Source: a virus. From it: a DNA stretch of 40,643 bases. The notes under the pieces are model-generated. The model had not been told where the DNA came from. It did no database searches and saw only the letters and a program-made list of their open reading frames with translations. Position 1 is the stretch's first letter; every line of letters starts with the position of its first letter. A program made the translations under genes and the position numbers. Shown one piece after another: positions 7,471-37,204 of the stretch. The stretch covers positions 1 to 40,643 of IMG/VR virus record IMGVR_UViG_3300047552_000530; one strand, given 5' to 3'.

Positions 7471-8064
7471 ATGAGCGTAGTATTGTGGGACGGGAAAGAT
7501 AAGCTCTGGGCCGATAATTTCATGGGATCTTCAGGCTCGGATGTAACACATATTCATAAGGTAGTTAAAGCGAACAACGGCAGCCTCCTAGGTCTGGTCG
7601 GAGAAAGCCGTGCAGTTTTGCTTACACTGAAGTATATGTCTAGCCTGACAGAGCTTCCAAAAGCAGATACTTTTTATAAGTGGCTACTTACAGACCGAGA
7701 ATTAAGGTTTTGTTTGGCAGGAATAGCTGCAGTACCATCTAAAGATGACTTACCTAAACACGTTGATAAGCTTAAAGATCGCGGTAAGCGTTTAAAAGAC
7801 GACTTTATAGGCACTATGCTAGTAGTACATCCCGAGAGAAAAGGCTATATCGTAACAGTGTACGAAGATGGAGAGTGTAGCGTTGTCGAGTTTATTATCG
7901 ACGAACCTGTCGCTGTAGGCTCGGGAAGAGACTTTACTTTAGGAGCTTTTCTAGGAGGTAACTCTAAGGGTAACTCTATAGAAGCCTCTGAAGCTATCTA
8001 TTTAACAAGCGTGTACCACAAATTTGTGTCTCCAACATGTGAGTATGTGCAACTAGGAGGTTAA
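7471..8064 (+). CDS. HslV/20S proteasome-like Ntn-hydrolase peptidase
   Basis: The protein is 197 residues, with GGAGG before the ATG. The fold signature is proteasome beta/HslV-like. It has a short N-terminal strand MSVVLWDGKDKLWADN, then HIHKVVKAN supplying a lysine (Lys30) at about the place of proteasome Lys33, with Asp15 near the place of Asp17. The C-terminal half has VAVGSGRDFTLGAFLGG followed by the SIEASEAIYLTSVY helix, matching the A-x-GSG...ALA...A segment of HslV. Met removal would expose Ser2, so the nucleophile would be Ser instead of the usual Thr. No HslU/ClpX-type ATPase is in the window, so it acts alone, with a host unfoldase, or as a non-peptidase Ntn hydrolase. Other phages carry similar genes of unknown role. 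Confidence 0.7.
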   Translation: MSVVLWDGKDKLWADNFMGSSGSDVTHIHKVVKANNGSLLGLVGESRAVLLTLKYMSSLTELPKADTFYKWLLTDRELRFCLAGIAAVPSKDDLPKHVDKLKDRGKRLKDDFIGTMLVVHPERKGYIVTVYEDGECSVVEFIIDEPVAVGSGRDFTLGAFLGGNSKGNSIEASEAIYLTSVYHKFVSPTCEYVQLGG

Positions 8065-13230: not shown

Positions 13231-13425
13231 TTACTTTTTAGGCTTAAAGTCAATAATACGAACAATAAAGATTGCTATCGTCAGAACTGAGAGATAACCA
13301 GGAGGAATAGTTTCCTTTAGCTGTTCGTACATTGTACCATAAGCAAGAATAGCGCCACTTGCTAGCACTGATAGCTGAACGCTAGCGAGTTTCCAAGCCT
13401 TCTTCCAGTTCTTAATTAATTTCAT
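13231..13425 (-). CDS. Holin
   Basis: A 64-residue protein with a basic start (MKLIKNWKKAWKLASVQLS), a first membrane helix (LSVLASGAILAYG), an IPPGY loop and a second helix (LSVLTIAIFIVRIID) ending in Lys residues. The KxWKKAWKxxSVQ...IPP...RIID pattern matches a common class of phage holins with two membrane segments. GGAG lies about nine bases before its ATG, inside the preceding gene. It is the last gene of the late minus-strand operon, so it is made with the structural proteins. That suits lysis timing. Confidence 0.8.
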   Translation of the reverse strand: MKLIKNWKKAWKLASVQLSVLASGAILAYGTMYEQLKETIPPGYLSVLTIAIFIVRIIDFKPKK

Positions 13426-24694: not shown

Positions 24695-24746
24695 CCTAAG
24701 TTGTTGAATATGATAACCTCACAATATTACTATAACACAACTTAGG
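24695..24746. repeat. 10-bp inverted repeat around the capsid promoter
   Basis: CCTAAGTTGT (24695-24704) and ACAACTTAGG (24737-24746) are exact reverse complements, 32 bp apart. One arm sits between the -35 and -10 boxes, the other next to the ribosome site of the capsid gene. The arrangement looks like a two-site operator; a stem in longer transcripts coming from upstream is the alternative. Confidence 0.6.
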
Positions 24747-30067: not shown

Positions 30068-30068
30068 T

Positions 30069-30236
30069 TCAGTCTCCTTTCTTATTGACGTCTTTCAGCT
30101 GTGCCGCCATGACGTCTAACAGTGCTTTGGTCACATGGACCTTATGTAGCCGCGTCAATCTGACTCCTAGCGTCAGTTGATGCAGAATAGTGAACACGAC
30201 GCCTAGGGCGATCGCTACGAGTAACAGTGTATCCAT
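30069..30236 (-). CDS. First gene of the late operon: small membrane protein, 55 aa
   Basis: GGAGGT lies about eight bases before the ATG and a consensus -10 box lies about 90 bp upstream. The product is one membrane helix (TLLLVAIALGVVFTILHQL) and a basic helical tail (HKVHVTKALLDVMAAQLKDV). It ends 1 bp before the next gene. Function unknown. Confidence 0.6.
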   Translation of the reverse strand: MDTLLLVAIALGVVFTILHQLTLGVRLTRLHKVHVTKALLDVMAAQLKDVNKKGD

Positions 30237-30328
30237 GTCAGTTGACCTCCAAGTATCTTTTAGCAGCGTTTCTTACCGCCACCCTTTTTCTTTTTCTTCA
30301 TATCTCGCTCTTTTCAATAATATGTGCT

Positions 30329-30357
30329 ATTATACCGCACCTTTTAACACAGAGCAA
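30329..30357 (-). promoter_or_regulatory. Promoter of the late structural operon
   Basis: On the minus strand, TTGCTC (30352-30357) and a perfect TATAAT (30329-30334) are 17 bp apart. The start would be near 30322, about 85 bases before the first late gene. A second TATAAT-like box (TACTATAAT on the minus strand near 30374-30382) lies upstream. The region is the minus-strand side of the divergent control region. Confidence 0.7.
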
Positions 30358-30834
30358 GTTTGTCGTATTACCTTAATTATAGTACATGAACTCACACTCC
30401 GCGAGATATTTTCAATTTATGCTAAAAATTTCGTCCCGCATGCACGCTCACAGCTGCTCACAGGGAAGCTTGAAGGAAGGATGAGAGGGAGCTCCTGAAA
30501 AATGGCTGAAAGTAGGACTTGAAGAAGCCTTTTAGCGTACGCTAGCAATTAGCTCGCGCACAGGCGCCTACAGGGCGCTTCAAAACCACTCAAAGAGTAC
30601 TCATATCCCCACCCCTAAGATTATCTGTGAGAAATCTTGGCGTGTATTAACAGAGAGCTCTACGAATTGCCTGTGAGCAAGCTGTGAGTGGGTGAGGTGT
30701 GTGCATCTTTGAGAGTTCTGAGAGCTAGCATATAGCATGCAATTACAAGGACGGAAAAAGAATATATGCTGCGTGAAGAAGCGCTTGAAACATAGCTGTA
30801 AGCCAATTCTGTGTGCACTGCACAACAAAAAGAT
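30358..30834. promoter_or_regulatory. Gene-free divergent control region
   Basis: About 480 bp between the late (minus) and early (plus) promoters hold no frame with a ribosome site. It is rich in the heptamer CTGTGAG / CTCACAG: two copies reading CTCACAG at 30447-30464 and three reading CTGTGAG at 30625-30631 and 30670-30688. Short GC-rich palindromes (GCGCACAGGCGCCTACAGGGCGC region near 30554-30577) lie between. This looks like an operator or switch region, possibly also involved in replication. Confidence 0.55.
30447..30688. repeat. Inverted composite repeat of CTCACAG units
   Basis: The left arm CTCACAGCTGCTCACAGG (30447-30464) is the reverse complement of the right arm CCTGTGAGCAAGCTGTGAG (30670-30688) except for one inserted base. 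Each arm is itself two direct copies of CTCACAG. The arms are 205 bp apart, flanked by the divergent promoters, with another CTGTGAG copy at 30625. Confidence 0.65.
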
Positions 30835-30862
30835 TTGACAAGCTGAACTTATCAACTATAAT
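30835..30862 (+). promoter_or_regulatory. Strong sigma70 promoter of the right early operon
   Basis: Perfect TTGACA (30835-30840) and perfect TATAAT (30857-30862) are separated by 16 bp. Transcription should start near 30869, giving a leader of about 35 bases before the small ORF at 30904. Perfect boxes suggest recognition by the host polymerase right after DNA entry, fitting an early promoter. Confidence 0.85.
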
Positions 30863-30903
30863 CCAAGCGTAAATAACAGCAACGGCAACACAAGGAGAAT
30901 ATC

Positions 30904-31011
30904 ATGAACAAGTATCTAATACTAGCAGTAATCATCTCAGCACCTTTAGCAGTAATGCTAATAACGCTGGGATACGTGGCAGAAGTAGTGTACGAACTAA
31001 TCATTAACTAA
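30904..31011 (+). CDS. Single-helix membrane micropeptide, 35 aa
   Basis: AAGGAGA lies six bases before the ATG and it is the first frame after the strong early promoter. Almost the entire peptide is one membrane helix (YLILAVIISAPLAVMLITLG) with a short VAEVVYELIIN end. First-made phage membrane peptides often alter the host envelope or block superinfection; that is inference. It may also serve as a leader for the next gene 10 bp on. Confidence 0.6.
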   Translation: MNKYLILAVIISAPLAVMLITLGYVAEVVYELIIN

Positions 31012-31331: not shown

Positions 31332-31673
31332 ATGAACACTAAAATTTTAATATCAGGCGAGAAAGCGGTAAGTTACTATCAAGGTGAGTTACAACTAGAA
31401 ATGTCTCCAAGCATCAGAAATGCAATACTTGCAAGTGTCAATGTGCAATACCCTGGAGCTATCGACAAGGACTTGGACAACATAATTGAGGGATTTTCTC
31501 GCCGTAAAGTCGTCATTGTAGTACCTGAAGAAGCTATTGTACTGGGAGCCGACCTAATAGAAGGCAAGAAGAACAAAGGTACAGTGATGGGAACTCTTAA
31601 AATGGAGTATAACAAGGCTAAGGGCAGCTGTGAGCTCAAGGCTGTAGATATTTACATCAGATCAAAAGATTAA
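31332..31673 (+). CDS. Hypothetical early protein, 113 aa (paralogue of the next gene)
   Basis: This protein aligns along most of its length with the 114-aa product that follows. MSPSIRNAILASVNVQYPGA matches ISPREELKALIYRELSKDYPG, a V-V-I-V-V strand matches A-V-I-L-V, LIEGKKNKGTVMGTLKMEY matches LEGALHRGKLLGKIEIDF, and both end in a K-A-V/A-I-H-[IL]-[YF] strand. The pair looks like a tandem duplication that has diverged strongly. The fold is alpha/beta without membrane or metal motifs. Function unknown. Confidence 0.7.
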   Translation: MNTKILISGEKAVSYYQGELQLEMSPSIRNAILASVNVQYPGAIDKDLDNIIEGFSRRKVVIVVPEEAIVLGADLIEGKKNKGTVMGTLKMEYNKAKGSCELKAVDIYIRSKD

Positions 31674-31685
31674 TAGGAGGTTATC

Positions 31686-32030
31686 GTGTATATGACACTA
31701 AATAACGAGCAGATCATCGCCCTTAAAGAAGGGCAAGTAAGAATCTCACCGCGCGAAGAGTTAAAGGCGCTGATCTATAGGGAATTGTCGAAAGATTATC
31801 CTGGCATCTCTGAGATGGACTTAGCACAACTTATCGTAGGGTGGACAGGAGAGCAAGCAGTTATCCTTGTGACCGATAGTACCAAAAGGGTGGGGCTCGA
31901 GAAGTTAGAAGGAGCATTGCACAGAGGCAAGTTATTAGGGAAAATAGAAATAGACTTTGACTACAACGTCAGGAAATATTTCTTCAGAGCAATACATTTG
32001 TTCGCAAAAGACGAAGAAACCGTGAACTAG
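31686..32030 (+). CDS. Hypothetical early protein, 114 aa (paralogue of the previous gene)
   Basis: The start is the GTG at 31686 because AGGAGG sits at the right distance from it; the ATG two codons later is too far. It shares the order of helix, YPGI, hydrophobic strand, LEGALHRGKLLGKIEIDF and final strand with its upstream neighbour. It is followed by a long AT-rich non-coding element. No known family recognised. Confidence 0.7.
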   Translation: MYMTLNNEQIIALKEGQVRISPREELKALIYRELSKDYPGISEMDLAQLIVGWTGEQAVILVTDSTKRVGLEKLEGALHRGKLLGKIEIDFDYNVRKYFFRAIHLFAKDEETVN

Positions 32031-32047
32031 TTCACACTTTTAAGGAG

Positions 32048-32229
32048 CGTTGCTGTACGGACTTAGTCTACATGTTAGCTTATATAATATATAGGTACTA
32101 TATTATGCGTTGCATATCTTATAGTAATACTATAGTAATTAATAATTAAAATTAAAATATAATATATACTATAAGTAACTAATAGAGGCCTATAGTAGAT
32201 AACATATAAACTATATCCGTACAGCAACG
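32048..32229. other. AT-rich element bounded by a perfect 14-bp inverted repeat (candidate origin)
   Basis: CGTTGCTGTACGGA (32048-32061) and its exact complement TCCGTACAGCAACG (32216-32229) enclose 154 bp that is only about 20% G+C by my count, much lower than the flanking genes. The interior is full of TATAGTA, ATAGTAAT and ATAATATA-like runs, and of short palindromes such as ATAGAGGCCTAT. No protein frame is present. Easy melting plus flanking symmetrical sites fit a replication origin, a protein-bound regulatory site, or a long base-paired RNA end. The next gene starts 22 bp after the right arm. Confidence 0.6.
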
Positions 32230-32251
32230 ATCAGGAAATAAGGAGAAATTT

Positions 32252-32782
32252 ATGAAAGCATACAACCTTCCTCGCATCTCTAAAAGGTACTATGAGGCCA
32301 GATTAAAGCAGTTAGAAGCCTCGTATCCTCCTCCCAGCTGCTACGAGTGGGCGTATGCCTCTCTTAGAGATCTAGGGTCTGTTATGAGATGTTACGTGTC
32401 AGCTGCTAAGATGGATCAGCTGTTATGGATGCAATCTGTAGGTATGGTGCAGCAAGGCACACAGCGGCACGCTAAGTGGTACCAAGAATATAACAGATAT
32501 TATCCACGACAAGGCTACCGTGAGAGAGGTTGCAGGCGCTTAAAGGAAGCTCCTCCACGTAAAGCGACCTACGAGTTGGAGCAAGATGTGCAAATAAGAG
32601 ACATGAAGCATAGTTACAGGGTAGACGTGGCAGGATACTTAGCGTATCATCTGCAAACTCCTGAGTATGCGGCTTGGAAGGCAGAAAAAGAGCGTGTCGA
32701 AGGTAGAGCATTAACCTCGACAGAGAGATCGAGGAAGCGAAGAAATTTGCTTAAACTCAAAAAGTTGTCTATAGTAAGTTAA
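32252..32782 (+). CDS. Hypothetical basic protein, 176 aa
   Basis: AAGGAGA precedes the ATG. The protein is basic and rich in Tyr, Arg and Lys (KWYQEYNRYYPRQGYRERGC; STERSRKRRNLLKLKKLS), mostly helical, without recognisable motifs. Its gene directly follows the AT-rich inverted-repeat element, so a DNA-binding role at that element is an attractive but untested idea. Confidence 0.65.
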   Translation: MKAYNLPRISKRYYEARLKQLEASYPPPSCYEWAYASLRDLGSVMRCYVSAAKMDQLLWMQSVGMVQQGTQRHAKWYQEYNRYYPRQGYRERGCRRLKEAPPRKATYELEQDVQIRDMKHSYRVDVAGYLAYHLQTPEYAAWKAEKERVEGRALTSTERSRKRRNLLKLKKLSIVS

Positions 32783-34777: not shown

Positions 34778-35404
34778 ATGAGAACGAAGATAGCAACGTT
34801 AATATTGCTTTTATTTTTTAGTGTAACTCCTTACCTACCGACAGCCGTAACTCCGGTAGTTGCTCAAGCAAAAGAGGATGCAGGGCTTGATTACTACATG
34901 GACGGCTACTTGATCCACGGAGAGATAGGAGACTTAAGCGAGTACCATGAGTTATTGACAGCCCTATTAATAGCCAAAAAAGGCGACGAGATCGCTCTTT
35001 ATATAGACTCACCAGGTGGACAGATGTATACAGGATACGCCATTAATATGGCGATGCACAAATCTAAAGCGCGCATATGGGTGTACTGCCTTAATTGTAT
35101 ATCAGCAGCAGGGTATATTGCAGCAGGCGGTACAGATATGATACTTACCCCTGAAAGTATCGTGCTTGTACACCTTGCAAGTAGAGGGGATCTTGTTAAA
35201 ATCACTACAGGAGATATCTTTAAATTGTCTAGCGGATTTGCACGAGGAGTGCTCGAATCTATACATTTACCTGAATCAGAGATAGCTCCACTTATGATAG
35301 ACGTTGATAACGCTATGGACGTGTGGCTAAGCGGTTCGCATATTTGCCTAACCAGTACTCGCGCAATACAGCATCCAATTGGTTGTTATATTTCTATGAG
35401 GTAA
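34778..35404 (+). CDS. Exported ClpP/S49-like serine protease
   Basis: A 208-residue protein that begins with a signal peptide (MRTKIATLILLLFFSVTPYL, likely cleaved after VVAQA near residue 31). The mature part has a ClpP/crotonase-type fold: YLIHGEIGDLSEYHELLTAL, then ALYIDSPGGQMYTGYAINMA (SPGG oxyanion loop), YCLNCISAAGYIAAGG with candidate nucleophile Ser109, and IVLVHLAS with His132. The Ser position fits NfeD/S49-type S-A-G-x-Y better than the ClpP AASMG register. The export signal puts it outside the cytoplasm, so it does not replace host ClpP. It precedes a small membrane protein and the endolysin, which suggests an envelope task. Confidence 0.75.
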   Translation: MRTKIATLILLLFFSVTPYLPTAVTPVVAQAKEDAGLDYYMDGYLIHGEIGDLSEYHELLTALLIAKKGDEIALYIDSPGGQMYTGYAINMAMHKSKARIWVYCLNCISAAGYIAAGGTDMILTPESIVLVHLASRGDLVKITTGDIFKLSSGFARGVLESIHLPESEIAPLMIDVDNAMDVWLSGSHICLTSTRAIQHPIGCYISMR

Positions 35405-36817: not shown

Positions 36818-37204
36818 ATGAGACTTGAAAACCTCTATATGATATGTATGGGAACTGAGACAGTTGTAGGTCCTATACCTATTGAAGACTATGCGGACAG
36901 CAGCCTTAAACGTTTGATATGGGTTCCTGAGACTACAGCGGATGTAATCTATTTAGAGTCCTACGGTATGTATAACACTTGGCAACCTAAGCCCTATGAT
37001 GGCTATAGCTTAATCTTCTTTAAGGCCAAACGAGAATACCTAGATTATCATCAAGGTGCGTGGTATCGCCCTTGTATTAAGGAGTTTAGAGAGCATCCAA
37101 AAAGGAACGGTGATCGTCGGCACCAGCACAGCAATGACATGTACAAGTGGTTGTGGAAGTATGAGGATCGTCGCCGAGAGGTAGCCACCGATTATTTCGA
37201 ATAA
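36818..37204 (+). CDS. Hypothetical protein with Arg-rich tail, 128 aa
   Basis: The frame follows the kinase by 1 bp but has no obvious ribosome site, so translation likely depends on coupling. The first half is a mixed fold (MICMGTETVVGPIPIEDYAD). The C-terminal 35 residues carry two DRR motifs (KRNGDRRHQHSNDMYKWLWK and YEDRRREVATDYFE) that loosely recall the RR-x-x-D family but do not keep its spacing. Function unknown. Confidence 0.6.
   Translation: MRLENLYMICMGTETVVGPIPIEDYADSSLKRLIWVPETTADVIYLESYGMYNTWQPKPYDGYSLIFFKAKREYLDYHQGAWYRPCIKEFREHPKRNGDRRHQHSNDMYKWLWKYEDRRREVATDYFE

Follow-up and report, generated by a model that had tools for sequence, protein, structure and literature searches.

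Locus and genomic setting of the element

The window, that is the whole stretch of DNA that was analysed, corresponds to positions 1-40,643 of the IMG/VR virus record IMGVR_UViG_3300047552_000530, with a mean G+C content of 42.6%. The element described here occupies most of a 221-bp gap between genes at 32031-32251, which was confirmed as one of two long gene-free regions, as the sequence-only reading had stated; the other is located at 30068-30904, and the gaps at 11.1-11.5 and 13.2-13.6 kb contain small ORFs. The features of the locus and of the promoter upstream of it are listed below by their positions in the window.

30835-30862 (+): perfect sigma-70 promoter, TTGACA-16-TATAAT, with which the rightward operon begins; the best-scoring one in the window
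30845-30909 (+): promoter-leader stretch that can be aligned with the right arm through the ATG (32200-32256)
30876-30884 (+): third copy of ACAGCAACG, within the early leader and 13 nt downstream of the -10 box
31686-32030 (+): gene before the element, 114 aa, an ancient paralogue of 31332-31673
32042-32047 (+): AAGGAG directly 5' of the left arm
32045-32086: 42-nt extended left arm, pairing with 32191-32232 at 81%
32048-32061 (+): left 14-bp arm, CGTTGCTGTACGGA, member of the unique exact pair
32087-32190: core between the long arms, 104 bp, 19% G+C, the least stable duplex in the window, with no significant secondary structure of its own
32191-32232: extended right arm, 42 nt, partner of 32045-32086
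32216-32229 (-): right 14-bp arm, the same 14-mer, which reads TCCGTACAGCAACG on the plus strand; the other member of the unique exact pair
32240-32245 (+): AAGGAG, ribosome-binding site of the next gene
32252-32782 (+): gene for a 176-aa basic protein of pI 9.9

The rightward genes run from about 30.9 kb across the join of the map to 13.2 kb, and the structural genes run leftward from 30.07 kb down to 13.6 kb. A replication set consisting of polymerase A, an exonuclease, a helicase, a D5-like primase-helicase and a ligase is encoded by the phage, as are a divergent GroEL chaperonin (997-2580), whose closest match within the phage collection has about 36% identity, an HslV-like peptidase (7471-8064) and, at 34778-35404, a ClpP-like protease. 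The gene following the element encodes the strongly basic protein that had been predicted there. No family match was obtained for this protein or for the 114-aa protein on the other side, and AlphaFold models of the two, made from single-sequence input, reached pLDDT values of 42 and 45. The products of 31332-31673 and 31686-32030 are paralogues of ancient tandem origin, with 18% identity along 107 residues (E 2e-11), likewise without a family match. The AAGGAG at 32042-32047 is the sole intergenic copy of a ribosome-binding-like word that is not followed by an ATG.

A second contig of 24,361 bases is identical to the window over the compared stretch except for one base, at 36842. This near-identical contig (L170) extends 679 bases beyond the window end (L170:9699-10377) and then meets the window start; because it bridges both ends (1 and 40643), the genome has a circular map of about 41.3 kb, of which about 679 bp are absent from the window. 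The same element is present in this contig, which argues against an assembly artefact and, at 99.99% identity, does not bear on conservation. It was the only true relative recovered by scans of IMG/VR with TerL, the primase, a tail protein and the 176-aa protein. The other 46 TerL matches in IMG/VR were rejected as kin, being mostly at about 35% identity or below and having no other gene in common with the window. MW202738, in which the upstream gene was matched at E = 0.2, was rejected as well on account of its different gene content. No DNA-level match to phages or plasmids and no relative of intermediate divergence were found in the collections searched.

Arms and AT-rich interior of the inverted repeat

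The perfect 14-bp inverted repeat that had been reported at 32048-32229 is present, with its arms matching at 14 of 14 positions, and it is the sole perfect inverted repeat of at least 14 bp with a spacer of at most 400 bp in the window. Other viral loci, 1.58 Mb in total, contain 11 comparable perfect repeats, a rate of about 0.28 per 40 kb, and the arms by themselves are only mildly unusual. In none of these 11 does the G+C of the interior fall more than 10 points below that of the locus. Pairing continues past the perfect 14 bp, with 18 of the next 25 positions matching, and shuffling the interior 20,000 times gave as many in 3 cases. The repeat is thus longer than first reported, at about 42 nt per arm and 81% complementarity, with perfect 14-bp ends and imperfect inner arms. 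The TATAGTA-type words of the interior were considered as an iteron family and rejected, since they follow from the AT-rich palindromic arms.

The interior had been described as about 20% G+C, and 20.1% was measured over its 154 bp, the lowest 154-bp stretch elsewhere in the window being 29.9%. By nearest-neighbour energies, no other 100-bp segment of the window is as unstable: this one lies 5.5 sd from the mean and the runner-up 3.0 sd. Folding of the 104-nt core, compared with shuffles on both strands, gave z values from +0.2 to -1.0, which are not significant. Compared with 38% G+C at the third positions of the long genes, the 19% of the core is lower than the neutral drift of this genome would suggest. 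The feature is real and non-random.

The early promoter and the shared nine-base site

The outer 9 bases of the arms, ACAGCAACG, occur three times in the window, in both arms and in the leader of the early promoter, with an expectation of 0.31; three copies were reached in 0 of 100 shuffles, two of the three being the arms themselves. When the right arm together with the Shine-Dalgarno sequence and ATG was compared with the whole window, the promoter-leader stretch was the best match (score 41, the next place 28), which was reached by 0 of 2000 shuffles. After removal of the Shine-Dalgarno and ATG part, the score was 28, tied for best in the window and reached by 10 of 2000 shuffles. The similarity of the left arm to the promoter is weak (79 of 2000 shuffles). 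The match was noticed after the fact, and the evidence that it provides for a shared site is judged to be moderate.

No terminator-like site was found on the plus strand between the early promoter and the element, and the perfect sigma-70 promoter is predicted to drive the operon that includes the element. Within the element itself no sigma-70 promoter was found at 9 of 12, and the best candidate there ranks 85th in the window. Further strong sigma-70-like promoters are located at 24734 (-), 23174 (-), 34372 (+) and 40065 (+). Those at 24734 and 23174 lie just upstream of structural genes, and therefore the phage probably uses the host RNA polymerase throughout.

Taken together, the element is most likely a cis-acting DNA control element of the early region. 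More specifically, it may regulate early transcription, as an operator or leader arranged around unstable DNA, a reading to which we give a probability of about one in three; both the protein binding and the effect on transcription are inferred. According to this proposal, ACAGCAACG would be the putative recognition site of a DNA-binding regulator from the phage or the host. Two inverted copies, whose arms start at a distance of 168 bp (16.0 turns of a 10.5-bp helix), would flank the easily melted 104-bp segment, and the third copy would lie just within the early transcript, at the promoter. Binding of the regulator would then modulate the transcription that passes through or enters the genes starting at 32252 and beyond, possibly by looping, by blocking, or by assisting the opening of the AT-rich DNA.

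The recurrence of the arm core in the leader of the perfect sigma-70 promoter, 13 nt after its -10 box, means that the site also occurs at a promoter elsewhere in the genome and favours regulation of transcription or of the leader over an origin of replication. The unstable and unstructured core is as expected for a role at the level of DNA rather than of RNA, and the position of the element inside the operon of the early promoter also speaks for control, as does the contrast between the perfect 14-bp ends and the imperfect inner arms. Against it stand the imperfect pairing past 14 bp, which exceeds the need of simple binding sites, and the lack of a good sigma-70 promoter within the element, whose best candidate ranks low. 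If a phage regulator does bind the shared site, the early promoter of an uncharacterised phage lineage would be linked to an internal point of early control. The shared site supplies exact sequences for testing; the feature is unusual and is known from a single phage.

Other readings and comparison with known systems

An origin of replication is a possible but doubtful alternative. It would have the arms as initiator sites and the interior of 104-154 bp as a DNA-unwinding element, with transcription from the early promoter aiding its opening. At lambda ori, the inverted-repeat iterons to which the O protein binds adjoin an A+T-rich segment of 40 bp, and the origin is activated by transcription (PMC5043065); this analogy, the early-region position and the presence of a replication set encoded by the phage itself all argue for such a function. 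A segment of the A+T-rich kind that serves as unwinding element in theta-type origins is also present here (20% G+C, 5.5 sd), as the most unstable DNA in the window lying between paired sites. In the best-studied theta origins, however, the initiator binds multiple sites adjoining the A+T-rich part (PMC5043065), whereas no iteron array was found at the element, where there are only the two arms and, 1.2 kb away, one 9-bp match. The anatomy proposed from the sequence alone, with sites flanking a melting region, was borne out as paired sites around an unusually meltable segment, but no finding points specifically to replication.

Cumulative GC skew, which the sequence-only reading had named as a check, was detrended; its minimum, at 30,626, falls within the region of divergent promoters instead of at 32.1 kb, and its maximum is at 13,310. 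These are the two sites where gene orientation switches, and the third-position skew of individual genes gave no consistent replication signal; because the skew follows gene orientation, it neither supports nor excludes the element as an origin. A different repeat cluster is located at the skew minimum, where five of the eight copies of CTGTGAG/CTCACAG in the window fall at 30447-30688, within the gene-free 837 bp that precede the early promoter. Five copies of any 7-mer were reached in 4 of 1000 shuffles of that region. The cluster is iteron- or operator-like, and it makes the larger gene-free region an equal candidate for the origin.

If the element were the origin, it would show the replication start of a phage with a D5-type primase-helicase. 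A version in which inverted early-promoter leader sites around a 104-bp melting segment form a little-described origin design, with one regulator coupling early transcription to origin opening for the D5-type primase-helicase, is improbable.

A hairpin in the early polycistronic mRNA, with a plus-strand stem that either determines mRNA stability or is cut by RNase III in the interval from gene 31686 to gene 32252, is unlikely. The element does lie 3' of the perfect promoter with no terminator-like site between, and a folding energy of -57.3 kcal/mol (z -5.2) was obtained for the plus-strand RNA of the region, whose closing stem of 14 bp is rich in G+C. The 188-nt folds reach -55.4 and -65.7 kcal/mol on the two strands, stronger on the minus strand, and after G+C correction the two are the most structured places in the window, each being the complement of the other. 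With the 14-bp arms fixed, however, the interior gave z -1.4 on the plus strand versus -4.1 on the minus strand (0 of 300 shuffles). The excess on the minus strand is due to G-U pairs in the arms, five versus one on the plus strand, and the minus strand is the wrong one for the expected transcript; on so few pairs this bias is suggestive. The plus-strand stem pairs over 14 bp and is then interrupted, its promoter upstream is a predicted one, and a core of 19% G+C is not required by a stem. The earlier suggestion of a long stem-loop RNA stands for the arms alone: the core lacks structure, and the promoter search gave no good candidate for a dedicated RNA.

The orphan ribosome-binding word adjoining the left arm, which recurs as TAAGGAG after the right arm, makes an insertion history possible, namely that the element is the relic of a small inverted-repeat (MITE-like) insertion between the ribosome-binding site and its gene. 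Such a relic would account for a length of 182 bp with perfect outer ends decaying inward, for the terminal inverted repeats around an AT-rich non-coding interior, and for a core well under the third-position G+C of the genome; with the element removed, the junction would resemble the ordinary gene junctions of this phage. However, TAAGGAG is itself an expected ribosome-binding word and on the right is separated from the element by 9 nt; no target duplication borders the element directly on both sides. A search for the outer 10 bases of both arms at similar spacing was carried out in viral contigs and 84,980 species genomes, and no second copy with the same ends, of the kind a MITE-like family would have, was found in the window, IMG/VR or the GTDB genomes. 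Nine other matches to both arms were rejected as chance, having ordinary G+C and no extended pairing, as was contig L038, which has two structural genes in common with the window and carries CGTTGCTGTACGGA inside a coding region without a partner. On this balance the relic is quite unlikely.

A structured non-coding RNA transcribed leftward from the minus strand, opposite the early operon, is very improbable: given its G+C, it has the strongest fold of the window (-7.1 sd), with a 33-bp stem of three mismatches in which G-U pairs help and an interior z of -4.1, but the best nearby minus-strand promoter ranks only 85th in the window, the core is unstructured with the long arms fixed (z -1.0), and no Rfam covariance model scored above its gathering threshold, weak generic hairpin matches (plant miRNA precursor) being the only ones.

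Among known systems, the bacterial MITE-like hairpin elements Correia/NEMIS resemble the element in size, terminal inverted repeats, AT-rich interior and intergenic position, and differ from it in that the element is a single copy without an abutting target duplication. The early mRNA of T7 is processed by RNase III at hairpins whose stem lies between early genes of a polycistronic transcript, as that of the element would; here, in contrast, the loop would exceed 100 nt at 19% G+C and the plus-strand interior is not selected for pairing. With lambda ori the element shares dyad sites by easily melted DNA in an early transcribed phage region. It differs from lambda ori in having no site array and only a putative initiator, in that the skew, which follows gene orientation, does not turn there, and in that its sites flank the AT-rich part whereas those of lambda adjoin it. 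In the gal and lac control regions, loops are formed between paired operators. The sites here would be read by a putative regulator and are inverted around 104 bp of AT-rich DNA, unlike those operators, but they resemble them in that the sites are identical, lie in helical phase and have a further copy at a promoter.
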